Positions 4,926-61,480 of a stretch of 64,000 bases of DNA are shown here, one piece after another; the first letter of the stretch is position 1; each line of letters starts with the position of its first letter. The notes under the pieces are model-generated. The model was not told where the DNA came from, did no database searches, and worked only from the letters and a program-made list of their open reading frames with translations. The position numbers and the translations under genes were made by a program. Location of the stretch: assembly GCA_025024175.1 (NCBI GenBank), contig QCXZ01000137.1, positions 16,988,001 to 17,052,000 on the forward strand. The letters are read 5' to 3'. The DNA comes from Rhyzopertha dominica. Lineage: Eukaryota; Arthropoda; Insecta; Coleoptera; Bostrichidae.

Positions 4926-7320
4926 GTAAGGATCGTTTTTGATGGTTTGGATTTTGGTGATTTCACAGAGATTTATTTGACAAATGTATAAGCTGAACTT
5001 CTGATTAAGAAGATTTAAAAAGAATGTCGTGAACTCGTTGGTTTTTAATCTTTCGTTTCGTTTTAGCTTAGAACTAAAGTACATCTAAAGAATTTCGTCT
5101 GACGTTTATGTTGGAGTCTTCTTAGGCCTATAGCTTTTGCCGTGGTTCTTGTATTTAAATAGAACAGACCTGTATGTTTCTTACGTTTAAACGTAAAAAA
5201 CTGGAAGATCTAATTTTATTACTATGAGTGGTGAATTAACTCTCAAGATATGATTTTGTCACAATATGCGTGTCCTCATTACTTGAATGATGTAGACCGC
5301 ATTATGAAATGACATAAATGCGAGCACTTCAAAGTAGGTTTATATTAAAACGACATCGTAGATTCATAACAAAGACTCTACAGAAGGAGCAGAAAGCATA
5401 GTATTTGTAACAAAGCTCTTCACTCGGTATAGACTGCACTTTCATAAAACCTTGTATTCACACCTGTTGTAACTTGAAATCGCACGTATGGCAGGACTAA
5501 ATTTAACAGAAATTATAAAAAAATATATTTCTTGCTATAGCATAATGCATTTTGTTATAAATATGAAGTTATCTAAAATTCAATTGTTGATGCTTCTAAC
5601 AAAATGCTTTTATTTTTTACATCAGCATTATTTTGTTTTATCTTGGATACGAGATACATTATAAAGCCCGTTACGCCTTAGGGTGTTATTATTACGCCCG
5701 CTTATAACGCTATTTGGTTCACGTGTGTTGTAAATTTGACATAACAAGCAAATCATAATGGAGAACAATTATTTTTAATCCTTAAAATTAATAATGCAAT
5801 TTTAATAAAAATATCCATAAATTGATTGTATACCTATTCAAAGCTGAATTTTGCATTAGACGTTTCATCTTTATAGCCGAGTACGATTTTCAGCATTATC
5901 ATTTTCGATATTCTACTGTCTTCAATATAACCTGATGCAACTGTATCACTTTTCTACTTTCCGTATCCCTTTAACCGACACCTTCGCAAGAAGAATTGCC
6001 GATGTTTGACGTAAACAGTGGCCCATGCGTTCTTAGACATTGAAATAACCAAGATATAATGCAATTCTTGACGTGATGTATCCATTTTTAACAACTGGTA
6101 GTGGGCGAAAGCCCAAAAAACCCGTCGTTTTCTTATCCCGTTTGGTAGGAGTAAAACTTTTTGAACCACCAGTTTTTGTCTTGAGCATTGACCACCACAC
6201 CTCCTCTGTCATGTATGCCGTCTATGGTTCACAGTCCTCCAAAAGGAACCATTAATAGGACAACCTATATAAAGAAAGTTACATCATCAATTGGGTTATT
6301 ATATATCTATATTCTTTCCAAAAAATGTATTGTTTGTAATTGTTGTGGTCAAAATTTACGATTTTTGAGTATATTGTCGCATTTGGGCCTCAGCTGGACG
6401 GGATCAGTGGTGGTCAAGCCAAATGCCGTATACAAGCCACGAGATTTAATAGTAATCACAGATCAACTCAGTAAAGATATAGGTACAAAAATAAAGACCA
6501 AGTTACGCATGTTACAAAAATGCAAAAATTATCAACGGACATAAAAATGAGAGAACATGACTAAGTTTCATTAACGATAAGGAATTTTAAAAGACAATAG
6601 AGGTTCAAATTTTTACTTACGTGAATTATTGCACTTATATCTTTTCAAAGCAATGAGGATACCTAGATAGCAGTNTCGCAACCTCTCGGTGATCAAGCCT
6701 GAACCTGACTCCCCGATCGTTATCTACGATTTCCGTATCTAGATGAAAACAGCAAATTTGCGCTTTACGCGGTTGTCATGTTTTTATTTTTTTCAGATCT
6801 GATAGATGGAAAATGGCAACAATGTTGCGAGTGCTTTAGAGGGTATGCGACAATATATCCTTTCAATACTTGCTCTAAAAACTTGTTTTTATGTTTATTT
6901 TCCGGTAAAGCACCGTTTTTGTTACTCCATTGTGGAAATTTGTTCGAATTCTTTTTCATACTGATTTCAGTATATTTTTGGGAACAACTCTGCATGAACT
7001 TTTTCGGCTCCTGCAAGTATATTTTCTGAAATTTTACTAATTTCATCCATAACGAGCCCGTATTTCATACGTATCGCTGTTTTTCACAAATATATAAATC
7101 GTCTTGTAATCAATTAAAACAAATCGAACGAGTAGTTTCATGTTCCAAATTTTGATTTTTTTAAGTATTCNAAGTGNAAAATAAAACGTATGCCTCACAA
7201 TGTTCATATCCTTCGGGCGACTTACAAAATCTTAGGCTCTATGGCCCTAGATTTGTGTAAACTCGTCACCCTGCTAGGTCATAAACATCTAAGTAATACC
7301 CTTGGTACATAAACAAAATT
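4926..7320. other. AT-rich DNA, no gene seen
   Basis: Probable start of a long intron if the 4.5-kb exon is real. The frames at 5954-6169, 6073-6255, 6188-6544 and 6765-7046 have no motif. Single ambiguous bases lie at 6675, 7171 and 7177. Confidence 0.4.
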
Positions 7321-7321
7321 T

Positions 7322-7425
7322 TGTTCAAACTTATGTCAGCCAATTGTTCTATTTTTGGCAAAGATTACAGGTGTAATCGAAACGTCAGATTAATAACTTT
7401 TTGTCAGTGCTGGTTACTGACTGAT
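7322..7425 (+). repeat. Fragment of a Penelope-like element terminal arm
   Basis: The stretch contains GTTCAAACTTATGTCAG, then GGCAAAGATTACAGGTG followed by TAATCGAAACGTCAG and TTTTTGTCAGTG. The same words occur in the same order in the arms of the Penelope-like elements at 36.3, 38.8, 45.9 and 46.4 kb. It includes the GATTAC/GTAATC hairpin followed by GAAACGTC. No coding part and no second arm were found, so it looks like a degraded fragment. Confidence 0.7.
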
Positions 7426-9432: not shown

Positions 9433-10041
9433 CTTTTGCATGGGTGTGAATCATGGGTTCTAATAGATAGGACGAAGAAGGGCAACAGGAATAATAATGA
9501 TTGATAAGCCAGAAATTATGTAATAATAAGAACACTGGAAAGAATAGTGGGGATATAAATAAGGCAGGGCTGAATAAGAGACTAAGAAAAGCTTAACCAA
9601 CCGAAACTGGCACAGGTTCTTTAAAAAACTATTTAACTGAGGTGAAAGCAATGTTTATAGAAAAGACCGGTGTAAAGCAATAAATTGGTTAATGTTAAAT
9701 TTTACCTTAACACCTAATGGCAGAAGAGGCTTTTACTAAGGAAGAGAATATGATTCTATCTTAGTATTGGATAGGTCCATCTTATGGAGGAGGATATAAT
9801 AAATAATGAAAAAGTATTCATCCTGGGGAGACAAATACTTTTTCTTTATTTGATTCTATGTTATACTCTGTTTTTTAGAACAGCAAGAGTACAAATACTC
9901 AGTGGCAAGTTTGCAAGTATTCAATTTATTTTCAAAGTTTTCGGCAAAATTAATGAATGACAAGACAAACTCCAAGATTTATTTTAGTTATGGTTGACTG
10001 TTACACTGAATGTCTTTATTAAAAGTAATTAAGTTCAGTTA

Positions 10042-10194
10042 AAATGTATGTATATGCTATGCTGTCTGCAACGCAAAATAGCTGCAGATAGATCTATTTC
10101 GCTATCATTATATCTCATCACTGCAATTTAGGTCTAGTGCTGACAGCATAGCACACAACTGGTTTGACTATATACCAAAGTCTTGGTATGGGGG
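10042..10194 (-). mobile_element. Short hammerhead-bearing retroelement, copy A (5'-truncated)
   Basis: On the minus strand this 153-bp repeat shares the stem I segment, the GATGA core, a stem II, GAAA and the stem III word ATAGATCTAT with the copies at 18.8 and 53.1 kb. It also shares their 3' end (CATAG...TACAT plus A/T tail). Near-perfect 12-bp direct repeats TAAGTTCA(G/A)TTA flank it at 10030-10041 and 10195-10206. The core C3 is G here (GTGATGA instead of CTGATGA), and stem II is weakened, so this copy should not self-cleave. It lacks the 5' third seen in the other two copies, as expected of 5' truncation during reverse transcription. Confidence 0.75.
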
Positions 10195-10206
10195 TAAGTT
10201 CAATTA

Positions 10207-14069: not shown

Positions 14070-14244
14070 GAAATCTTAGTCTTTTGGGGTTAGACCGCGT
14101 CTGATTTAGGAATAAGGTCGACGTTTCGTCCGCACTTGGGGCATCATCAGGACAGGAATAAGGTGTATGAAATATGGTGCAAACCTGACGCAAGAAACAC
14201 GTCCGAACGAATTCCGCGGTCTAACTCCAAAAGACTAAGATTTC
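14070..14244 (-). mobile_element. Small foldback element carrying a hammerhead-like core
   Basis: Thirty-base arms at 14070-14099 and 14215-14244 are inverse copies with one mismatch (GAAATCTTAGTCTTTTGG at the left outer end). Inside, the minus strand reads CTGATGA (within about 14143-14152), then about 16 bases, then GAAACGTC (about 14120-14128). That is the order of the hammerhead core: CUGANGA, stem II, GAAA, a minimal stem III, and cleavage after GUC. Stem II is weak here, with only a few G-C pairs, and stem I is about three pairs (GTC/GAC). GAAACGTC with a minimal stem III is the form reported in Penelope-like elements, so I read this as a PLE-related terminal-repeat derivative. No clear target duplication was found. 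Confidence 0.55.
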
Positions 14245-18764: not shown

Positions 18765-18776
18765 AATTATCAAATT

Positions 18777-19070
18777 AAAATACATGTCTATGCTGTGCTG
18801 TCTGCACCTCAACCAACTGCAGATAGATCTATTTCGCTGTCATTATAGCTCATCTGTGCAGTTTAGGTCTAGTGCATTTTAATTTATGTAATGTATGTAT
18901 GTAATGACCTGACCTGACCTGACCTGCTGTCAAATTGAAGTATGCAGTTGCATGCCAATTTGTCAGGCTACAGGTCAGTTCCTTTAGGCAATAGTACCCG
19001 TTAAGGCAGCTAGGTGGCTTTGTCATCATGTCAGTGTAATGCTGATATAAGCATTGCCATCTAAATTCTT
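18777..19070 (-). mobile_element. Short hammerhead-bearing retroelement, copy B
   Basis: A 294-bp repeat on the minus strand is flanked by perfect 12-bp direct repeats AATTATCAAATT (18765-18776 and 19071-19082), which fixes both borders. Its 5' third (GAATTTAGATGGCAATGC... to CCACCTAGCTGCC) and its hammerhead segment match the 53.1-kb copy. The middle differs: it contains four GACCT units (18906-18925) and lacks the left half of the 21-bp inverted repeat. The hammerhead core reads CAGATGA (U4 changed to A), while stem III (ATAG/CTAT), GAAA and the seven-pair AACTGCA/TGCAGTT stem I are kept. The ribozyme should be inactive. Confidence 0.8.
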
Positions 19071-19319
19071 AATTATCAAATTGTTATTGCCATAGAACGG
19101 CATATGACTCCTGTTCTTAATTAATCTTATTTAATCCTGTCTTTAATGAAACAGAACATGACATTTTGTTTATTGCACTGCATAAAACCAATGTCATCGA
19201 TGAACTAAAAGACTAAGAAATTGTTACTTCCAGCTTGAGGAGGCACTTCCTCAATTCAGAATATTCCAGCATTGGTGATAAATGAAACTCCAGCGCTTTA
19301 AACAAAAACGCCTATTGTT

Positions 19320-28404: not shown

Positions 28405-28475
28405 CGTTGGTTATTTGACCTTGACGTTTCGACACTCATGTTGGTGTCTTCCCCAGAAGTAGCTCTGAAAATGAA
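28405..28475 (-). repeat. Degenerate hammerhead-like motif of PLE type
   Basis: The minus strand reads CTT, then CTGGGGA, a stem II formed by GACAC and GTGTC, then GAAACGTC and AAG (core 28423-28456). The layout is that of a minimal PLE-type hammerhead: CTT/AAG is stem I, a 5-bp stem II follows, and GAAACGTC closes it. The required A6 of CUGANGA is G here, so it should not cleave. It is probably the remnant of a Penelope-like terminal repeat. No coding part and no target duplication were seen. Confidence 0.45.
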
Positions 28476-36240: not shown

Positions 36241-36283
36241 CTACACTGCTAGACGAGGGTGAATGCTTTCAGCGTCCATAATA

Positions 36284-36423
36284 TAATAAGATAATATTTT
36301 GTCGGATAGATCGCTGTCTCTTGAAAAACACTGACAAAAAATTAATAGTCTGACGTTTCAATTACAACTGTAATCTTTGTCAAAGACGCAGAACCTCAAA
36401 ATTTGCCTGACACAAGTTCAAAC
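36284..36423 (-). repeat. PLE left inverted arm
   Basis: Inverse of 38792-38930 with few differences. It holds the GATTAC hairpin/GAAACGTC motif on its minus strand. Confidence 0.85.
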
Positions 36424-36566
36424 AAATTTTTGAAAGTAAATAAACAAATCACCAAGGAAGCGAGACGTCATAGAAACAACGTGCCAACCTGATAAAAAAG
36501 GAACCTAACGATGAAAAAGGAACTACCTACCTACTAGATATACACGAACTACTTGATAAAAGATAA

Positions 36567-38714
36567 CTACAAAATAGCCTTCCAAATGTCACCTAACTCA
36601 TAATTTCCATAATCCCTATTAAAATTATTAGTATTCCTACAAATTTCTATAGCTTCTTTTATTAGACGTTTGTGATAATATTTTTCTCTATGTAAAATTT
36701 TTGTTTTATCAAAATCAATCATGTGTCTAGTCAAATATGAGTGTTCAGCTACGGAAGATTTATCTATCTGTTGCAACCTAGTAGCACGTATGTGTTCTTT
36801 CAAACGCGTACCTACTTTTCTTTTTGTTTGACCTATGTAACACTTTCCGCAAGAACAAGTAATTTTGTAAACACCTTCACTCTCTAAATGTACTTTATCT
36901 TTAGTAGAATTTAAAATTTTATCTAAATTATTATATGTACTATCAACAACTAAAATATCATGTTTTCTAAGCATCCTCTTTAATTTTTCCGAAAGGCCTT
37001 GTACATAAGGCAAACTCAACTTCAATTTACTTTGTCGTGGCTGAGAATTTACTTGATTTGGATGAGCACTTTTATTAAAAACTGACCAAATATTCTTACT
37101 ACTATAACCATTTCTCATTAGCGCTGATTTAAGATAATATATTTCTTTTTGTACAGAACTTTCGTCTGATATCCTTTGTGCTCTAACAAATAACGTCCTA
37201 ATAAGACTATTCTTTTGAGAAGGAGGGTGGTGAGATGTGGCATGTAAATATCTGTCTGTGTGTGTTGGTTTTCTGTAAACCTTGTGTCCTAACTGTCCAG
37301 TGTTTGTTCTGTAAATTTTGACATCCAAGAAAGGTAAACTACCATTGCTTTCTAATTCCAAAGTAAATTTTATGTCGGGATTTTGACTGTTCAAATGATT
37401 TAGAAACCTACCCAGCTCTTCTATACCATGGGGCCAAATAACAAAAGTGTCATCTACGTACCTATACCAACATTTTGGTTTAAGATGAAAACTGTTTATC
37501 GCTACATGTTCAAAATTTTCCATAAACAAATTGGCTACTACAGGACTTAGAGGTGAACCCATTGCACAACCTGATTTTTGTTCATAAAAATTATCGTTCC
37601 ATAAGAAATAAGTAGATTTTAAACAATGTTCGGATAATCTGGCTATCGTGTCACCTAAGGGATCGCTATTAAGCTTGGATTTGATGATATCTATCGTTTC
37701 AGGAATGGGTACTTTCGTAAATAAAGAAACCACGTCAAAACTAACCAAAATATCACCTTCTGAAATACTTAAACCTTTTATAATATCGATAAAGTGTGAA
37801 GAATTTTTGATGAAACTACCGGTATTTCCTACATAAGGTTTTAAATAGTTGGCACAAAATTTTGCCAATCTGTAACAAGGACTGCCAATCGTATTGACTA
37901 TGGGTCTTAACGGGACATTGGTTTTGTGGATTTTGGGCAAACCATACAATTTAGGTACCTTGCAATCGGAAACAGTTAAAAGAGACTTCTCCTCATTCGA
38001 AAGATTTGAACTTTTGATAAGATCATTGGTAATTTTGGAAATTTTTGAGGTAGGATCTCGGGATAATTTTTGATATGTTTCCTCATCTAACAAATCTCTA
38101 ACTTTATTCTCGTAATCTGTTCTATCTAAAATTACTGTGGCTGAACCTTTATCTGCTCTAGTAACTATAATGGACTTATCTGTATTTAAATCCTTAAGAG
38201 CCTTCATTTCCTCAGATGTCACATTAGGTTTGGGCATACGTGCATTTCTAATAGCGTGGCATACATCCATCCTAATCTTATCCGCTTGATCTTTCGGAAG
38301 CAGTCTTATGCAAGATTCAACAGATGACATTATCTCCACTTTTGGAATGGTCCGTGGCGTTACAGCAAAGTTCATCCCCTTCGCTAAAATATTTACAGCA
38401 GCATCTGAGACACTCTTTTTTGATAGGTTTATCACAGTGTTGTTGGTGTTGGTTTTGACTATGTTAGATGATTTGAACTTATTGTGTTTAACGGTATCGA
38501 ATTTCTCAAATTTAAGTATGTTTTTTTCCTTGACCTTGTTAAAGTGTTGTTTGTATACTTTTTGTGTAAACTTTATTATGTCTTCAAAATCTTGATAAAA
38601 AAGGTTGTGGGATAGAATTTGCAATGTTATGTTTATGTCTTCATCTAAGAAACCAAGTTGTCTACGTGTGTCGTGTATGCGTTCCCTAATTAAAGCAAAT
38701 TTTGTTTGTAGCAT
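36567..38714 (-). CDS. PLE polyprotein: reverse transcriptase + GIY-YIG endonuclease
   Basis: The 715-codon frame copies element RNA into DNA at a nick made by its own endonuclease. Around residues 380-425 are the RT motifs CAMGSPLSPVVANLF and YRYVDDTF (catalytic YVDD about 419-422), and KLYGLPKIHK lies earlier. A GIY-YIG nuclease domain occupies roughly residues 610-680: GVYKITCSCGKCYIGQTKR contains the G.Y...YIG core with the Cys pair found in Penelope nucleases, and R...EH follows. I use the ATG at 38714. However, the same frame stays open upstream to about 38809 and encodes KRCRDKKVVPNFL, which looks like the conserved N-terminal PLE motif, so the annotated start is probably internal or the 5' end is truncated into the arm. 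There is no internal stop. Single-exon structure fits a retroelement. Confidence 0.93.
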   Translation of the reverse strand: MLQTKFALIRERIHDTRRQLGFLDEDINITLQILSHNLFYQDFEDIIKFTQKVYKQHFNKVKEKNILKFEKFDTVKHNKFKSSNIVKTNTNNTVINLSKKSVSDAAVNILAKGMNFAVTPRTIPKVEIMSSVESCIRLLPKDQADKIRMDVCHAIRNARMPKPNVTSEEMKALKDLNTDKSIIVTRADKGSATVILDRTDYENKVRDLLDEETYQKLSRDPTSKISKITNDLIKSSNLSNEEKSLLTVSDCKVPKLYGLPKIHKTNVPLRPIVNTIGSPCYRLAKFCANYLKPYVGNTGSFIKNSSHFIDIIKGLSISEGDILVSFDVVSLFTKVPIPETIDIIKSKLNSDPLGDTIARLSEHCLKSTYFLWNDNFYEQKSGCAMGSPLSPVVANLFMENFEHVAINSFHLKPKCWYRYVDDTFVIWPHGIEELGRFLNHLNSQNPDIKFTLELESNGSLPFLDVKIYRTNTGQLGHKVYRKPTHTDRYLHATSHHPPSQKNSLIRTLFVRAQRISDESSVQKEIYYLKSALMRNGYSSKNIWSVFNKSAHPNQVNSQPRQSKLKLSLPYVQGLSEKLKRMLRKHDILVVDSTYNNLDKILNSTKDKVHLESEGVYKITCSCGKCYIGQTKRKVGTRLKEHIRATRLQQIDKSSVAEHSYLTRHMIDFDKTKILHREKYYHKRLIKEAIEICRNTNNFNRDYGNYELGDIWKAIL

Positions 38715-38791: not shown

Positions 38792-38930
38792 GTTTGAACT
38801 TGTGTCAGGCAAATTTTGAGGTTCTGCGTCTTTGACAAAGATTACAGTTGTAATTGAAACGTCAGACTATTAATTTTTTGTCAGTGTTTTTCAAGAGACA
38901 GCGATCTATCCGACAAAATATTATCTTATT
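38792..38930 (+). repeat. PLE right inverted arm
   Basis: On the plus strand it contains GTCT, a TTGACAAA core-like stretch, a GATTAC...GTAATT hairpin, GAAACGTC and AGAC. GTCT and AGAC can pair as a stem I. Related words occur in all four other arms or fragments in the window. Confidence 0.85.
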
Positions 38931-38944
38931 ACACTGCTAGAAAT

Positions 38945-45846: not shown

Positions 45847-46504
45847 ACGAGGGTGAATGCTTTCAGCGTCCATAAATTAAGATAATATTTTGTCGGATAG
45901 ATCGCTGTCTCTTGAAAACACTGACAAAAAATTAATAGTCTGACGTTTCGATTACACCTGTAATCTTTGTCAAAGACGAAGAACTTCAAAATTTACCTGA
46001 CACAAGTTCAAACAAAATTTTGAAGGTAAATAAACAAATCACCAAGGATGCGAGACGTCATAGAAGCAACGTGCCAACCTGATAAAAAAGGAACCTAACG
46101 ATGAAAAAGGAACTACCTACCTACTAGATATACACGAACTACTTGATAAAAGATAACTACAAAATAGCCTTCCAAATGTCACCTAACTCATAATTTCCAC
46201 AATCCCTATTAAAATTATTAGTATTCCTACAAATTTCTATAGCTTCTTTTATTAGACGTTTGTGATAATATTTTTCTCTATGTAAAATTTTTGTTTTATC
46301 AAAATCAATCATGTGTTGTTTCTATGACGTCTCGCATCCTTGGTGATTTGTTTATTTACCTTCAAAATTTAGTTTGAACTTGTGTCAGGCAAATTTTGAG
46401 GTTCTTCGTCTTTGACAAAGATTACAGGTGTAATCGAAACGTCAGACTATTAATTTTTTGTCAGTGTTTTCAAGAGACAGCGATCTACCCGACAAAATAT
46501 TATC
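45847..46504 (-). mobile_element. Internally deleted foldback derivative of the Penelope-like element
   Basis: This 658-bp copy starts with the same ACGAGGGTGAATGC tail as the element at 36253 and ends with the same arm. Thirteen-base direct repeats TTTATTCATTGAT flank it (45834-45846 and 46505-46517). It keeps the sequence equivalent to 36425-36727, including the last 50 or so codons of the PLE frame (46170-46315), and has lost everything upstream. Its arms are longer than in the full element: the right arm begins near 46317 and mirrors 45870-46068, so about 50 extra bases of left-arm-adjacent sequence were copied in inverted form. It encodes no complete enzyme and would depend on one made elsewhere. 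Confidence 0.88.
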
Positions 46505-46544
46505 TTTATTCATTGATATTAAAATTAAATGTGCAGTTAGTACA

Positions 46545-47048
46545 TTAATTACAGAAATTGAATGTCTTCTGGATTTTGGTTTCAGGTGTATTTCTATTTA
46601 TAGTAAAATTAGCTATCATAGCCTGTGAAGTAGAAGCTGCAGTAGTAGGTAATGCATTTTTAACCCGAGTCATGCACACCTCTATTCTCCAGAAGAATGG
46701 ATTTAATTCTTGCTCGTGAAGTGTATGTATTACCCGTCTTTGCGAAATATTTAATTGAGGGGTGATTCTTCTGGTGTTGGTCGTTGCATCTTCTTCCAAT
46801 AGATCTAAAATATTTTTCACTTCTTCTATAGTTTGTCGAACAGCTTTTTCAAACGTTATTATAGCACTTGGAATAGATCCAGTCTCGCAAAATTTGTTAA
46901 AAACTCGAATAAATACGTTTTTGTCAGGAGCCTTCTCACGTGGAAAACGTCGTCGATATTCTTCTACAGCAGCTGTGGCATTGTCATTACAAAAGTTATA
47001 AATAAAAACCATATTAGCATACTCTAAATTAGAAAAAAGCTTTGGCAT
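46545..47048 (-). CDS. DUF4817/HTH transposon protein without a catalytic domain
   Basis: A 167-codon frame with an ATG start at 47048. Residues about 8-57 (EYANMVFIYNFCNDNATAAV, then YRRRFPREKAPDKNVFIRVF and CETGSI) match the DUF4817 N-terminal domain of insect DDE transposons ('EY.DM..IYG...GNA..A...Y..R.P.R..PD...F...H..L.ETGS'). Residues about 70-115 are a second helix-turn-helix (TNTRRITPQLNISQRRVIHT, then LHEQELNPF). The family normally continues with a DDE domain of roughly 200 residues; here only about 50 residues follow and none of the acidic motifs is present. RIEVCMTRVKNAL might be the C-terminal 'R...CI...G.HF' end, which would mean an in-frame internal deletion. It could bind DNA but not cut it. 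The uninterrupted frame is notable in this decayed setting. Confidence 0.7.
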   Translation of the reverse strand: MPKLFSNLEYANMVFIYNFCNDNATAAVEEYRRRFPREKAPDKNVFIRVFNKFCETGSIPSAIITFEKAVRQTIEEVKNILDLLEEDATTNTRRITPQLNISQRRVIHTLHEQELNPFFWRIEVCMTRVKNALPTTAASTSQAMIANFTINRNTPETKIQKTFNFCN

Positions 47049-52930: not shown

Positions 52931-53073
52931 TAAAATTGTGCATGCAAACCGCTACTTAACGCTTAGCTTTTTTGTAGAACTAGTAGTATAATTTTTTCAC
53001 TAAATATGTACTGTAAATATTTCTGCATCCTAAATTCACCGCATTTCAGTTTTTTTTAATATATCAGGGATAT

Positions 53074-53286
53074 AAAGTGAGAATTTAGGATGGCAATGCC
53101 ATCTGTCAGCATTACACTGACATGATGATAAAGCCACCTAGCTGCCTTTGGTATATAAGCAAAACCAGTTCTATGCCGTGTTGTCTACACTAGACCTAAA
53201 CTGCACTGATGAGCTGTAATGACAGCGAAATAGTACTATCTGCAGTTGGTTGAGGTGTAGACAGCACAGCATAGACATGCATTTTA
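53074..53286 (+). mobile_element. Short hammerhead-bearing retroelement, copy C (retrozyme/SINE-like)
   Basis: Perfect 13-bp direct repeats ATATCAGGGATAT (53061-53073 and 53287-53299) delimit a 213-bp repeat. The 3' end, ATAGACATGCATTTTA, is shared with the other two copies, and the 5' region to CCACCTAGCTGCC with copy B. A 21-bp inverted repeat (53170-53190 with 53255-53275, two mismatches) encloses the ribozyme and would extend its stem I. I see no tRNA- or 5S-type promoter boxes, so it is not an ordinary SINE by that test. The long target duplications and common 3' end show it moved by reverse transcription. The enzyme source is unknown; the window's Penelope-like elements are candidates. 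Confidence 0.85.
53199..53247 (+). ncRNA. Type I hammerhead ribozyme, intact core
   Basis: Every conserved position is present. Stem I strand AACTGCA (53199-53205) is followed by the core CTGATGA (53206-53212), then stem II, GCTGT and ACAGC around an AATG loop (53213-53226), then GAA (53227-53229). Stem III is ATAG pairing with CTAT around a TA loop (53230-53239). The cleavage base C17 is 53240, and TGCAGTT (53241-53247) pairs with all seven bases of the first strand. The predicted cut is between 53240 and 53241. The flanking 21-bp inverted repeat would lengthen stem I beyond an internal loop, where tertiary contacts with the loops are usual in natural hammerheads. Transcription has not been shown. 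Confidence 0.85.
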
Positions 53287-53299
53287 ATATCAGGGATAT

Positions 53300-57149: not shown

Positions 57150-59522
57150 CTAAACAATATATGGCTTTAATTTTGTTATATTAAATATTCCTTTTGTTTC
57201 TCCTGTTTTTGTATCCTGCAATTCATAGGCATTGTCCCCTTTCTTAGCTGAAATTTTAAATGGACCCTCGTAGATCAGAAACAGTTTCTTTATTTCTTTA
57301 TCCTCGGATGAAGAAAGCTGATTTGCTTTAACCCACACTATATCTTCGACTTCAAATTTAGAAAATTTTGATCTCTTGTTGTGTTTTGCTTGTCTTTTCT
57401 CCGCTTTTCCTAGTAGTCTATCTTTTACTAGCTGTATTGTTATTTTAGGTTGCGAGTTACCATTTTCTGGAAACTCGATTATTTTTCTTATGTATTCTTC
57501 CGGGTGAATACCTTCCTGTAGCTGTATTGGTGCTACTCCAGTGCTTTCGTGTACACAACAGTTGATCCACATCTCAATTTTCTCTACATATGTTCCCCAT
57601 GATGAATGCTTACCATGGCAGTATGTTCGGAGTAAACGCCCTATTTCTCTCATCACCCTTTCACTGGGGTTACCTTGAGGATAATATTTTGATGAGTGCA
57701 GTTCCGTGATACCGTTTGACTGCAAAAATTCTTTCCACAATTTTCCAGTGAAATACGTGGCATTATCAGACAAGATCTTTTTTGGTTTAGTAACAGAGTT
57801 AAAATAACTATTTAGTTTGTTTACAATTGATTTAGTATTTGCTTTCCGCAACGTATATAATTTGACATACTTTGAAAATACATTCAAAACAACCAAAATA
57901 TATTTTACACCCCTTATAGATGAAGGCAAAGGACCAAAAATATCTATTGCTAGTAGATCATCTATATCTTGAGGTATTATAGATTTCATGTGTGCTTGTA
58001 ATATTTGGTTCGGAACTTTGGCTTGCTGGCATAAGGTACATCTAGCTATAACTTTGGCAATTGATCTCCTAATATTATTCCAAATAAAGTTTTGAGTTAT
58101 TACACCATAACACTTCCAAGTTCCATAATGACCATAAATTTCATGATAATCTTTAATTAATTCTTCTTGCATATTAGTTGGTATGAATATTCTCCAAGTA
58201 TCGTTTTCACGTATTCTTGCAAACAAAATGTTATTAAATGTCACGTATTCCATATATCCTATACGTTGTGATATATCTAATGTCAATAAACATTTAATCT
58301 TTCGTATAGCCGGATCTAAATCTTGAAATTTTGCAATGTCTTTTAACTTTTTAAGATTATCAGGGCCAAGTTTTATGTTTACTACTGTTATAAACACATT
58401 TCTGGAATCACCCGCTTCAAAACCATCTTCTGCAGGATTTCTGGACAGTGAATCGGCAATGATATTGTTTTTACCTGAACAGTGTTGAATATCAACAACA
58501 AATTGCTGAATTGTGAGTATCCACCTAGCAATCCTACTGTTTAATAATTTACAACTGAGCATGAATGATAATGCTTTATGATCGTTAATAACCTTTACCT
58601 TACATCCTAAAATAATGGTTTCCCACTTTTTTAAACACCAAACAATGCTCAACATTTCTCTTTCACTTGTTGTGTAATTAATTTCTGCTGCGTTAAGTTT
58701 TCTACTTGCAAAAGCAATGTTATTTTCTGTACCGTCTATCCCATATTGAAATAATCTACCACCTATACCTATGTTTGACGCATCAGTCTGTACAAAGAAA
58801 CATTTATTTAACTCTGGATGATGTAACATAGGAGCTGATGTCAATACCTCTTTAATTTTGATAAAAGCTTGATCACTTTGTTTATTCCAACACCACTTAA
58901 CGTCTTTTTGCAACAAATGAAATAATGGAAGTAAAATGTTTGCATACTGTTCACAAAATTTTCTGTTATAATTACAAATTCCTAGAAATGCTCTTAATTG
59001 TTTGACATTCTTTGGTCTTGGATATTTTGTGATTGCCGTTATTTTGTCTGGATCTACTCTAATACCCTGTGTTGACAAAATCATACCAAGAAACTTTACC
59101 TCTTTTCTGAAAAAATTACACTTGGATAAATTTGCAGTCATGTTAGCATTCTTCAATTTCTGAAACACGTATTCAAGATGTTCTAAATGTTCTTTTGAAT
59201 TTTGTGACGTAATTAGTATGTCATCAATGTATGGTGTTATAAACTCCTTATTTTCCCCAAATACCTTGTCTAAACAACATGTTAAAGCCGCTACTGATGT
59301 TTTTATTCCGAATGGTACCCTTTTGAAAACAAATACTTTACTACCAACCATAAAACCCAAATACTTTTGATGTGCTTCCTCAACTGGTATTTGCCAAAAA
59401 CTACTCGTTAAATCTATTGTAGAAATACAACAACAAGATTGATATCTATAGAGAATATGCTCAGGTGGTGGTGAACAATTATAATCCATTACTATCTTCT
59501 TATTCAATTCTCTCGCATCCAA
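57150..59522 (-). CDS. Pol: RT, RNase H and integrase
   Basis: 790 codons with no ATG at the start, continuing the frame above. RT: DLTSSFWQIPVEEAHQKYLG, VPFGIKTS and YIDDILIT (catalytic YIDD 98-101). RNase H: FFVQTDASNIGIGG (about 243-256) and the NDHKAL motif, then HCSGKNNIIADSLSR. Integrase zinc finger: HEIYGHYG and CTLCQQAK. Core: AIDIFGP (Asp about 526), LSDNATYF (Asp 586) and QGNPSERV (Glu 621). The 34 residues between the last two acidic residues, with NPSERV in place of NG.AER, occur in one insect gypsy lineage as I recall it. The C-terminal segment ending FNITKLKPYIV is an integrase tail. All catalytic residues are present, so only the upstream break disables it. No chromodomain is evident. 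Confidence 0.95.
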   Translation of the reverse strand: MDARELNKKIVMDYNCSPPPEHILYRYQSCCCISTIDLTSSFWQIPVEEAHQKYLGFMVGSKVFVFKRVPFGIKTSVAALTCCLDKVFGENKEFITPYIDDILITSQNSKEHLEHLEYVFQKLKNANMTANLSKCNFFRKEVKFLGMILSTQGIRVDPDKITAITKYPRPKNVKQLRAFLGICNYNRKFCEQYANILLPLFHLLQKDVKWCWNKQSDQAFIKIKEVLTSAPMLHHPELNKCFFVQTDASNIGIGGRLFQYGIDGTENNIAFASRKLNAAEINYTTSEREMLSIVWCLKKWETIILGCKVKVINDHKALSFMLSCKLLNSRIARWILTIQQFVVDIQHCSGKNNIIADSLSRNPAEDGFEAGDSRNVFITVVNIKLGPDNLKKLKDIAKFQDLDPAIRKIKCLLTLDISQRIGYMEYVTFNNILFARIRENDTWRIFIPTNMQEELIKDYHEIYGHYGTWKCYGVITQNFIWNNIRRSIAKVIARCTLCQQAKVPNQILQAHMKSIIPQDIDDLLAIDIFGPLPSSIRGVKYILVVLNVFSKYVKLYTLRKANTKSIVNKLNSYFNSVTKPKKILSDNATYFTGKLWKEFLQSNGITELHSSKYYPQGNPSERVMREIGRLLRTYCHGKHSSWGTYVEKIEMWINCCVHESTGVAPIQLQEGIHPEEYIRKIIEFPENGNSQPKITIQLVKDRLLGKAEKRQAKHNKRSKFSKFEVEDIVWVKANQLSSSEDKEIKKLFLIYEGPFKISAKKGDNAYELQDTKTGETKGIFNITKLKPYIV

Positions 59523-60442
59523 ACAAATTCTGACGGTGCCATCTTTTTTATTACTGGAACTATTGGACTTATGTATTGTGTATCTGATCTTTCAATTATT
59601 CCCTCTTCTACCATCTCCTCTATCTTGTTATTCACTGCTTCCTGATACTTAAATGGTATAGGGTAACTTTTTCTGTGCAATGGCTTGTTGTCATTCAGTT
59701 TTATTTTATGCTTATAAGCATTAGTAAGACCTGGTTTATTGGAAAATACATTTGAGAATTTCTCAATAAGACTCTGCACTTCTTTTAAGTCCTTCTTTTC
59801 ACATTTCTCTTCCTTCTCTTCTTTTTCCATTGTTATGTGCTCTATCTCCACCTCCAGTTCTTGTAGTGTGTTGCATTTCTTAAGGAATGATATTGTAAGA
59901 CCATGTTCAGCGATTACTACAAGTGATTTTTCAAAATCAATTACAGCGTTAAATTTAGTTAAAAAGTCTGTGCCTATTATTACATTATGAATTAAATTTT
60001 CCACAACCAGAAAGACAATATGAAAACAGCTTTTGTCAATTAGCAGTTTTACATAAATTTGCTCTTTAACAGTTTTGCTAGCATTTCCGGTGGCGGTTAC
60101 TATCGTAACTCCACTTACAGGTATAGATTTTATATTAGTACACTGCTTTTGCAACAAAATATAGAAGTCTTTTGATATACATGAGTGCATGCAACCAGAA
60201 TCTACAAGTATGTCAGTGAATAAGCCTTCTATCTTACCTTGTATAAATGGAACTTTATTATCGTTTTTAAGTTGAAGTTTGTTATCAGTTAGAATAGTGT
60301 TACAGTGATATTGCTGGTCCAGTCTACTTGGGTTTATTTTTCGTTGTTCTTCCTGAATTTCGTCTTCATTTCTTGAGTACACTTCCGCTTTGGTTTTGAA
60401 AACTTCTTGGTTGTATCGTTTCGTCATCTGAATACTCTTCAA
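59504..60442 (-). CDS. Pro and start of RT (pol, first part)
   Basis: 312 codons from a non-ATG start, so made as part of a polyprotein. Residues about 65-175 are a retroviral-type aspartic protease: LFTDILVDSGCMHSCIS has the catalytic Asp in DSG (residues 81-83) instead of the more common DTG, and IIGTDFL (155-161) is the second flap-side motif. Residues 245-300 begin the RT (KPLHRKSYPIPFKYQEAV and IIERSDTQYISPIVPVIKK). The frame then runs off into KMAPSEF. In related elements this point reads KKDG..R.C.D.R.LN, and the correct continuation lies in the -1 frame at 59522. The break is at a minus-strand A6-G run (59543-59549). Confidence 0.88.
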   Translation of the reverse strand: MKSIQMTKRYNQEVFKTKAEVYSRNEDEIQEEQRKINPSRLDQQYHCNTILTDNKLQLKNDNKVPFIQGKIEGLFTDILVDSGCMHSCISKDFYILLQKQCTNIKSIPVSGVTIVTATGNASKTVKEQIYVKLLIDKSCFHIVFLVVENLIHNVIIGTDFLTKFNAVIDFEKSLVVIAEHGLTISFLKKCNTLQELEVEIEHITMEKEEKEEKCEKKDLKEVQSLIEKFSNVFSNKPGLTNAYKHKIKLNDNKPLHRKSYPIPFKYQEAVNNKIEEMVEEGIIERSDTQYISPIVPVIKKMAPSEFVWMREN

Positions 60443-61480
60443 CGTTTACTGTCCTTACGTAATGATTTTCTCGTAGTTTTTCTTTCATCCTTCCCCGGTT
60501 CTCTTTAATCTGGGCGGTATTTAGATCTTTGTCTTCTCGTATACGCCAGTTGCTAGCCTTATCCTGCCTCCTGTCCTGCCATTTGTTAGCTCCGTCTCTT
60601 CTGTTGTAATTTTCTCTGTCATCTGTGCGATATCCATACCTAGGAGTATTTTCTGCTTTCCTGTAGTTATTAGGTGAGCGGTACTCTGGTCTGTCTCTAT
60701 ACTTTGGTAAATTTTCTTCATACTTCCTTTGGTATACTTGTCCTTTGTTGACGTATTCTTCGTTTGGTGAGTTTATATGATTGTACCCAGCGTAGTGTTG
60801 TTCATAACCATTGTAATAGTTCTTCTGGTAGCTGTTATGTCTTGAATAATTATGTCGTTCATTTCGTTGTTTGTTTTCTATGGTGTCCAGTCTCTCTAGA
60901 GTCTTGTATATATTTTCAATTGATTTTGGATTAGTACTTACTAAAATTCTTGCTACATCAATGGAAAAATGTGCTGCAATTACGTCAACAACATCATCTT
61001 GATTAAGGTATTTAATAGTTTTTATCTTCTTGTATATCTTCAGAAAGTATTCAGCCATATTTGACGAACCTCTATCTTCGTATTTTCCTTTCATAATACG
61101 CAGCAATGCCTCTTGTTGCTTTTGAGCATCCCAATAACGCTGCATGAATTTGTGACGAAATTCCTCAAACGATCCTGAATTTCCTGCAAATATTTCGAAC
61201 CATATAGCCGCATCTCCTTTCAAACTTCTCTTAGCAAATGACAAACGTTGCTCCCTGGGTATCCATTTTTCTTCCAGCCAATTCTCCAATGATTCAATGA
61301 ATTCAGTTGGTGATGCATTTCTGCCGTTAAAAATTGGTAAATCGCTAGTATCGATACGCCATTGAAAAGCTCTGAAATAATCACTTTCTGTAGGTTGAAA
61401 AGTCGCTCGTTGATAACGTTCATAATCTCTATCAGATGTCGTTCGTGGCTCAAGTTTCTTCTTCGGTTCATCCTTGCTTT
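60366..61480 (-). CDS. Gag, main capsid/nucleocapsid part
   Basis: The open frame continues from the A-run break to the stop at 60366. It forms the particle that packages element RNA. The segment WLEEKWIPREQRLSFAKRSL and IWFEIFAGNSGSFEEFRHKF then FMQRYW fits the retrotransposon gag domain ('W......W......F......L.G.A..W.......WEEF...F...F'). The C-terminal third is very rich in Arg, Asn, Tyr and Asp and contains no CCHC zinc knuckle, so RNA binding probably relies on basic residues. The end overlaps the protease frame by about 76 bases in a different (+1) frame, which may reflect frameshifting or another indel. Confidence 0.85.

Follow-up and report, generated by a model that had tools for sequence, protein, structure and literature searches.

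Three copies of a short element and their ends

The window, by which we mean the whole stretch of 64,000 nucleotides of Rhyzopertha dominica DNA analysed here, contains three copies (A, B and C) of a short dispersed element with a hammerhead motif, a Penelope-like element (PLE) with flanking repeats, a Ty3/Gypsy-type retrotransposon and one further ORF. Copy A occupies positions 53074–53286 of the plus strand; it is 213 bp long with a GC content of 41.8%, includes one hammerhead and is bounded by a 13-bp target-site duplication, ATATCAGGGATAT, found at 53061–53073 on its left and at 53287–53299 on its right. ORFs lying wholly inside it reach at most 28 amino acids, the longest overlapping one (89 amino acids, minus strand) is located mostly outside, and a search for LTRs within the copy revealed no exact direct repeat that reaches 11 bases. 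The first-pass annotation had proposed a short retroelement with a complete hammerhead core, and copy A bears this out, being non-coding, flanked by target-site duplications and intact in its core.

Copies B and C were detected by BLAST inside the window, both on the minus strand. A profile search revealed no extra copy; the three weaker rows in its output repeat copies A, B and C as read on the opposite strand. Copy B (about 18776–19070) consists of a 5' module (about 19003–19070) and a hammerhead module (about 18776–18876) with the core CAGATGA. The 5' module is common to copies A and B (53080–53148 of the plus strand in A; 91% over 69 bp). The middle of copy B comprises 129 nt where copy A has about 40, and most of the 5' arm of the paired rod described below is thereby gone. 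This middle (18877–19002) is unrelated sequence with a run of CAGGT pentamers and finds only matches of up to 30 nt elsewhere in the window; after its examination the idea that copy B is a partial dimer was rejected. The duplication around copy B, AATTTGATAATT in minus-strand reading, lies at 19071–19082 on the 5' side of the element and at 18765–18776 on its 3' side, where one base can equally be assigned to the last position of the element. Copy C (10038–10194) is truncated at its 5' end and has kept the hammerhead, here with the core GTGATGA, together with both rod arms. It is flanked by TGAACTTA, again in minus-strand reading, at 10195–10202 (5' side) and 10030–10037 (3' side).

Exact target-site duplications are thus present at all three loci, with lengths of 13 (A), 11–12 (B) and 8 bp (C). 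The 3' end ATTTTA is common to the three copies and lies 46 nt past the predicted cut in copy A; in copy C two extra bases stand between it and the duplication. Copies A and B additionally have a common 5' start (within a few bases). Read as sequence features, variable duplications, a fixed 3' end and 5' truncation are marks of target-primed retroposition and not of a DNA transposon. A poly-A or simple 3' tail is missing from the element. The 213-bp interspersed repeat of the first-pass annotation is indeed repeated, at three places in the window, but the length of 213 bp applies to copy A only. The target sites contain 77, 65 and 77% AT compared with 65% in the window, values that 9, 56 and 10% of random stretches equal or exceed. 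AT-rich targeting, as it occurs with PLEs, was dropped as evidence because these sites are not distinguishable from the background of the window.

Two small inverted repeats were seen near the 5' ends. In copy C a perfect one, ATACCAA-GACT-TTGGTAT (10172–10189, minus strand), has a left arm that is absent from copy A and may be the record of a snap-back in second-strand synthesis. At copy A a perfect 12-nt inverted repeat links the upstream flank (53026–53037) with the 5' end of the element (53081–53092), possibly by chance.

Hammerhead motif, core and rod

The hammerhead motif of copy A extends from 53199 to 53247 on the plus strand. Its core comprises CTGATGA at 53206–53212, which we take to be positions C3–A9 of the standard numbering, and GAA (53227–53229) followed by A15.1, i.e. 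53227–53230 in total. The pair A53230–T53239 closes stem III and C53240 is the cleavage base, both intact in this copy, so that all parts of the complete core named in the first-pass annotation (CTGATGA, GAA, the A–U pair and C) are in place. Stem I is formed by 7 bp (53199–53205 with 53241–53247) and stem II by 5 bp (53213–53217 with 53222–53226), as had been stated before. The 4 bp given for stem III could not be retained, since they would leave a loop of 2 nt; more realistic are 3 bp (53230–53232 with 53237–53239) capped by a palindromic tetraloop, which is GUAC in copy A and GAUC in copies B and C. From this fold cleavage is predicted between C53240 and T53241, 46 nt before the 3' end of the element. 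Copy A exhibits the invariant core and three helices and is open at helix I, as is typical for type I hammerheads. It also has the loop 2 and the stem I bulge through which a tertiary loop 1–loop 2 contact might form; of the four pairs that follow this bulge copy C has lost two. Judged from its sequence, the hammerhead feature in copy A is real and belongs to a known kind.

A full-core descriptor scan over both strands of the window returned a single match, namely this motif; tolerating one mismatch in the core, while stems I and II had to reach 4 bp, added no other. In 1000 dinucleotide-shuffled windows the scan found no match when the minimum stem lengths were set to 5, 4 and 3 bp, in agreement with the earlier statement that chance assembly is very unlikely. 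Looser stems gave matches in 1 (4, 4, 3), 8 (4, 3, 2) and 25 (3, 3, 2) of 1000 dinucleotide shuffles, and one shuffle in 1000 equalled the summed stem length of 16, in a different stem balance. The Rfam check proposed in the first-pass annotation, a match above threshold, turned out negative: no family reached its gathering threshold anywhere in the window. The best match of copy A is Hammerhead_HH9 (RF02275), to which the core is identical and stem II similar, but it scores 28.0 bits where the cut-off is 52 (E 7.6e-5 for a segment of 601 bp). Copy B reaches 21.8 bits with the same family (E 0.0043), and copy C is without an Rfam hammerhead match up to E 5. Pattern scans gave no matches in viral or prokaryote genome contigs, collections in which insect genomes are not expected.

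The core is intact in one of the three copies only (A). Copy B shows a change of U4 to A and copy C of C3 to G; the latter substitution abolished cleavage in the hammerhead of a PLE from anole (PMC11167929; here and below citations refer to the accessible parts of the papers). As their cores read, B and C have probably lost ribozyme activity. No extra conservation of the core was detected in the pairwise comparisons: copies A and B differ at 1 of 12 core positions and at 6 of 89 elsewhere (Fisher p 1.0), copies A and C at 1 of 12 and 22 of 105, respectively (Fisher p 0.46).

The inverted repeat extending stem I, also part of the first-pass description, proved to be real, with arms of 30 nt that are 80% complementary. 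Its rod pairs a 5' arm (53171–53190) with a 3' arm (53255–53274), both on the plus strand; 19 of these 20 pairs are standard in copy A and 3 of the 20 are changed on both sides between copies. Across the three copies 92.4% of 105 cells of the structure pair. Changes on both sides occur at 4 of 40 base pairs, compared with 0 or 1 for structures slid by 1–3 columns, and the observed count is equalled or exceeded in 38 of 500 shuffles, all this with a structure drawn from copy A, which favours that structure. The covariation among three sequences is thus suggestive, not strong, support for the structure.

Folded as a ring of 213 nt, copy A has a predicted z of -6.5 (none of 200 shuffles is as low), and in the linear fold 71% of its bases are predicted to be paired. 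For the isolated 49-nt motif the minimum-energy fold (-13.2 kcal/mol) hides the core, while the catalytic fold is predicted at -9.5 kcal/mol. The 10-nt stretch of stem III alone is predicted to form no stable hairpin. This region is palindromic in copies A, B and C, with predicted self-duplexes of -9.6 and -9.8 kcal/mol. Hammerheads acting as dimers have been described for amphibian retrozymes (PMC7229834) and PLEs (PMC7761336), and by analogy the palindromic stem III would fit this type.

The Penelope-like element and other neighbours

A candidate helper of the element is located 14 kb from copy A. It is a Penelope-like reverse transcriptase ORF of 715 amino acids (36567–38714, minus strand; Pfam RVT_1, E 5.5e-11), the C-terminus of which looks GIY-YIG-like by inspection, a domain for which Pfam reported no match. 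The protein has 1622 relatives at E ≤0.001 among 7994 candidates scored, and the named ones among the 120 listed are mostly from insects, also from anole and echinoderms. The ORF is flanked by a repeat with a degenerate minimal hammerhead (36284–36423, minus strand) and its inverted twin (38792–38931), 100% identical over 140 bp. A second inverted pair of PLE repeats is found at 45878–46013 and 46372–46506, and a more diverged piece at 7314–7409. Degenerate minimal hammerheads with a TTGACAA core and GAAACGTC are located in the PLE repeats at 36359 (minus), 38856 (plus), 45949 (minus) and 46436 (plus); the relics in the 140-bp repeats have two core mismatches each. The loose scan that shows these relics gave 5 matches versus a mean of 0.4 and a maximum of 2 in 60 mononucleotide shuffles. 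Two other places of the minus strand contain PLE-like minimal hammerhead candidates: one at 28430 with one core mismatch, found by scan, and one near 14120 with CTGATGA, GAAACGTC and a poor stem II, found by eye.

The two 140-bp repeats share sequence up to 68 nt past the cut of the relic, and the second, related pair diverges near the corresponding point. One end of the PLE and a second copy stay aligned over about 31 bp more (36253–36566 with 45847–46156), and this extension resembles the optional 'tail' of 30–40 bp described for PLEs (PMC11167929). In the anole PLE reverse transcription is reported to start inside the RNA, downstream of the hammerhead, with uncleaved RNA as the main substrate in vitro (PMC11167929). 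The layout of the short element is similar, with a hammerhead, a short gap and a fixed 3' end. The parallel concerns layout only, as a sequence comparison between element and PLE gave no significant match (best E 1.2) and kinship in sequence was rejected as evidence. Because there is no such similarity, the suggestion that the PLE perhaps acts as helper rests on analogy. That the 213-bp unit is itself a PLE was discarded, since it has no reverse transcriptase or GIY-YIG gene and no ORF above 28 amino acids wholly inside.

Among the other neighbours is a Ty3/Gypsy-type retrotransposon (57150–61289, minus strand) with protease, reverse transcriptase, RNase H and integrase domains. The best relatives of its integrase are 57% identical, those from aphids and beetles about 40% and that from a pseudoscorpion 25%; insects account for four of the five named organisms among 20 relatives, which together with the mostly insect relatives of the PLE protein makes the insect host of the first-pass annotation plausible. 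An ORF of 167 amino acids (46545–47048, minus strand) contains a DUF4817 helix-turn-helix domain, and a protein search with it scored 27 candidates, none of them at E 0.001.

Mobility of the element and its relation to known systems

Unit-length RNA is released only if a tandem transcript is cut twice. Copies A, B and C each consist of one unit with one hammerhead, and a search of 400 bp to either side found no tandem neighbour at any of the three loci, the one match seen being 19 nt on the reverse strand (E 0.03). A transcript from any of these loci would thus have one cleavage point and would give neither unit-length nor circular RNA. The earlier proposal of RNA processed to unit length, possibly circular, consequently fails for these copies; a circle would need tandem source copies, and the window contains none. 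On the other hand each insertion spans the cut site. This means that the template was not the cleaved linear monomer but uncleaved, religated or circular RNA.

We consider it likely that the 213-bp unit belongs to the metazoan non-LTR retrozyme kind, as a non-coding retroelement that is not autonomous and that entered its site as a single unit through target-primed reverse transcription. It would work like a retrozyme and is probably a member of that kind, with single-unit insertion as its peculiarity. A helper reverse transcriptase, perhaps that of a PLE, would begin synthesis downstream of the hammerhead, at a fixed site or close to one, and copy RNA still spanning the cut site, be it uncleaved, religated or circular. 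The ribozyme, possibly as a dimer formed via the palindromic stem III, would trim transcripts that read through or are tandem, and at a single-unit locus it could make one cut at most. A more far-reaching proposal, which we regard as rather doubtful, is that these copies are solo retrozymes, which insert as single units with fixed ends and not as circle-derived tandem cDNA, that the PLE reverse transcriptase starts just downstream of the hammerhead on uncut RNA, and that the palindromic stem III keeps a lone ribozyme off and allows it to switch on only when two RNAs pair.

The enzyme that moves animal retrozymes is described as unsettled (PMC7229834, PMC7761336), and single-unit insertions with readable ends are informative here as they reveal which RNA was copied. 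All copies span their own cut site, which excludes the cut linear monomer as template, and the internal start of a PLE in vitro has its counterpart in the fixed 3' end close to the hammerhead. Together, template and fixed end make the question of the helper testable.

Several other readings have to be weighed against this retrozyme-like retroelement. Tentatively, copies A–C could be unit-length reverse transcripts of a circle whose source, tandem or circular-RNA retrozymes, lies elsewhere in the genome; this possibility, to which we give appreciable weight without holding it probable, overlaps the favoured reading as a special case of it. The templates spanned the cut site in all three copies and the common end points of A and B could stem from a single pass around a circle. 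PMC7229834 reports circular expression of metazoan retrozymes, and cDNAs of various lengths, monomeric ones included, are expected for plant retrozymes in PMC4918200. All three loci are without a tandem or partial dimer, however, and the published retrozyme model, as it is described in PMC7761336, expects cDNAs longer than one unit. The element could also be a retroposon of SINE type that has its own promoter and depends on a LINE for transposition; its hammerhead would then have been captured and would play no part in mobility. A fixed 3' end, the common 5' start of A and B, the truncation of C and variable duplications would fit any target-primed retroposon, and the schistosome elements Sm-alpha and Sj-alpha are described as SINE-like elements with hammerheads (PMC2770079). 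We regard this reading as unlikely. A convincing RNA polymerase III promoter was not seen: there is one exact A-box match (element position 174) and no exact B-box match, and with one mismatch a loose B box is found at 54 and 95 and an A box at 76 and 150, whereas a strict B box does not occur. These one-mismatch matches are not in the order and spacing that are, as general knowledge, usual for such boxes. ARAGORN found no tRNA gene in the window, the element has no poly-A or simple 3' tail, and the paired rod around the hammerhead speaks against a passive passenger.

The motif might further resemble a hammerhead by chance, or be the product of decay, within an ordinary repeat and be without ribozyme function now. 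The substitutions in the core of two of the three copies, the Rfam score under the cut-off and the hiding of the core in the minimum-energy fold would all agree with decay. We nevertheless judge it improbable, given that none of the 1000 shuffles had a match at stems of at least 5, 4 and 3 bp and that changes on both sides occur at 4 of 40 pairs versus 0–1 for slid structures, a contrast that is favoured by drawing the structure from copy A. By far the least credible origin is a DNA transposon, for instance a MITE, with the motif lying in its long inverted repeat by accident. It could account for the long inverted arms and the short size, and the outermost six bases of each end of copy A can pair. 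But the long arms are internal and not terminal, the duplications (13, 11–12 and 8 bp) are unequal in length and sequence, and one end is truncated in copy C; it was rejected on the internal arms and the unequal duplications.

As a retrozyme-like retroelement the unit can be compared with systems already described. Metazoan non-LTR retrozymes are non-coding elements of 170–400 nt with less than 45% GC and a type I hammerhead with short stem III; they have duplications of more than 4 bp, no LTR and highly paired RNA, a PLE helper has been proposed for them (PMC7229834), and insects are named among their carriers (PMC7229834; Cervera and de la Pena 2020). Copy A resembles them with its 213 nt, 41.8% GC and lack of gene and LTR, and so do the duplications of 13, 11–12 and 8 bp, all above 4 bp; moreover, a PLE ORF (36567–38714) coexists in the window. 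More than 70% of the bases are paired in metazoan retrozyme RNAs (PMC4918200), and the RNA of copy A is likewise predicted to be highly self-paired (71%; ring z -6.5), values that apply to this copy only. In contrast, the published metazoan retrozymes are tandem, from dimers to large multimers (PMC7229834), while copies A–C are single units at all three loci, and the published ones that have been studied are expressed as circles (PMC7229834). A literature search, with most subscription papers beyond its reach, found no title or abstract start on single-unit insect retrozymes.

Other hammerheads share particular traits with the element. The satellite pDo500 of Dolichopoda cave crickets (PMC2837043) is also from insects and has a 49-nt hammerhead with compensatory stem changes; it is however a satellite of about 500 bp, whereas the element occurs as dispersed units with target-site duplications, and the two are likened by description only. 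The Sm-alpha and Sj-alpha elements of schistosomes (PMC2770079) are likewise short retroposons with a hammerhead, but they belong to flatworms and Sm-alpha is tRNA-related (PMC2770079), whereas this window has no tRNA gene. The minimal hammerheads of PLEs are, like presumably that of the element, located upstream of the start of reverse transcription (PMC11167929, PMC7761336). Most of helix III is usually missing from them, and they can occur in elements that encode proteins (PMC11167929, PMC7761336), in contrast with the fuller stem III, the long rod and the absence of a gene in the element. Type III hammerheads of termites and dipterans (PMC7936874) are also found in insect genomes, in termites as isolated motifs, but differ in type from the type I motif seen here and are linked to HDV-like circular RNAs (PMC7936874). 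Minimal type I motifs have also been reported dispersed in non-coding regions of animal genomes (PMC7761336), and plant hammerheads are often isolated motifs (PMC4918200). Considering these dispersed animal motifs, the isolated ones of plants and termites and the hammerheads of schistosomes and crickets, the single-unit peculiarity of the element is not without precedent.
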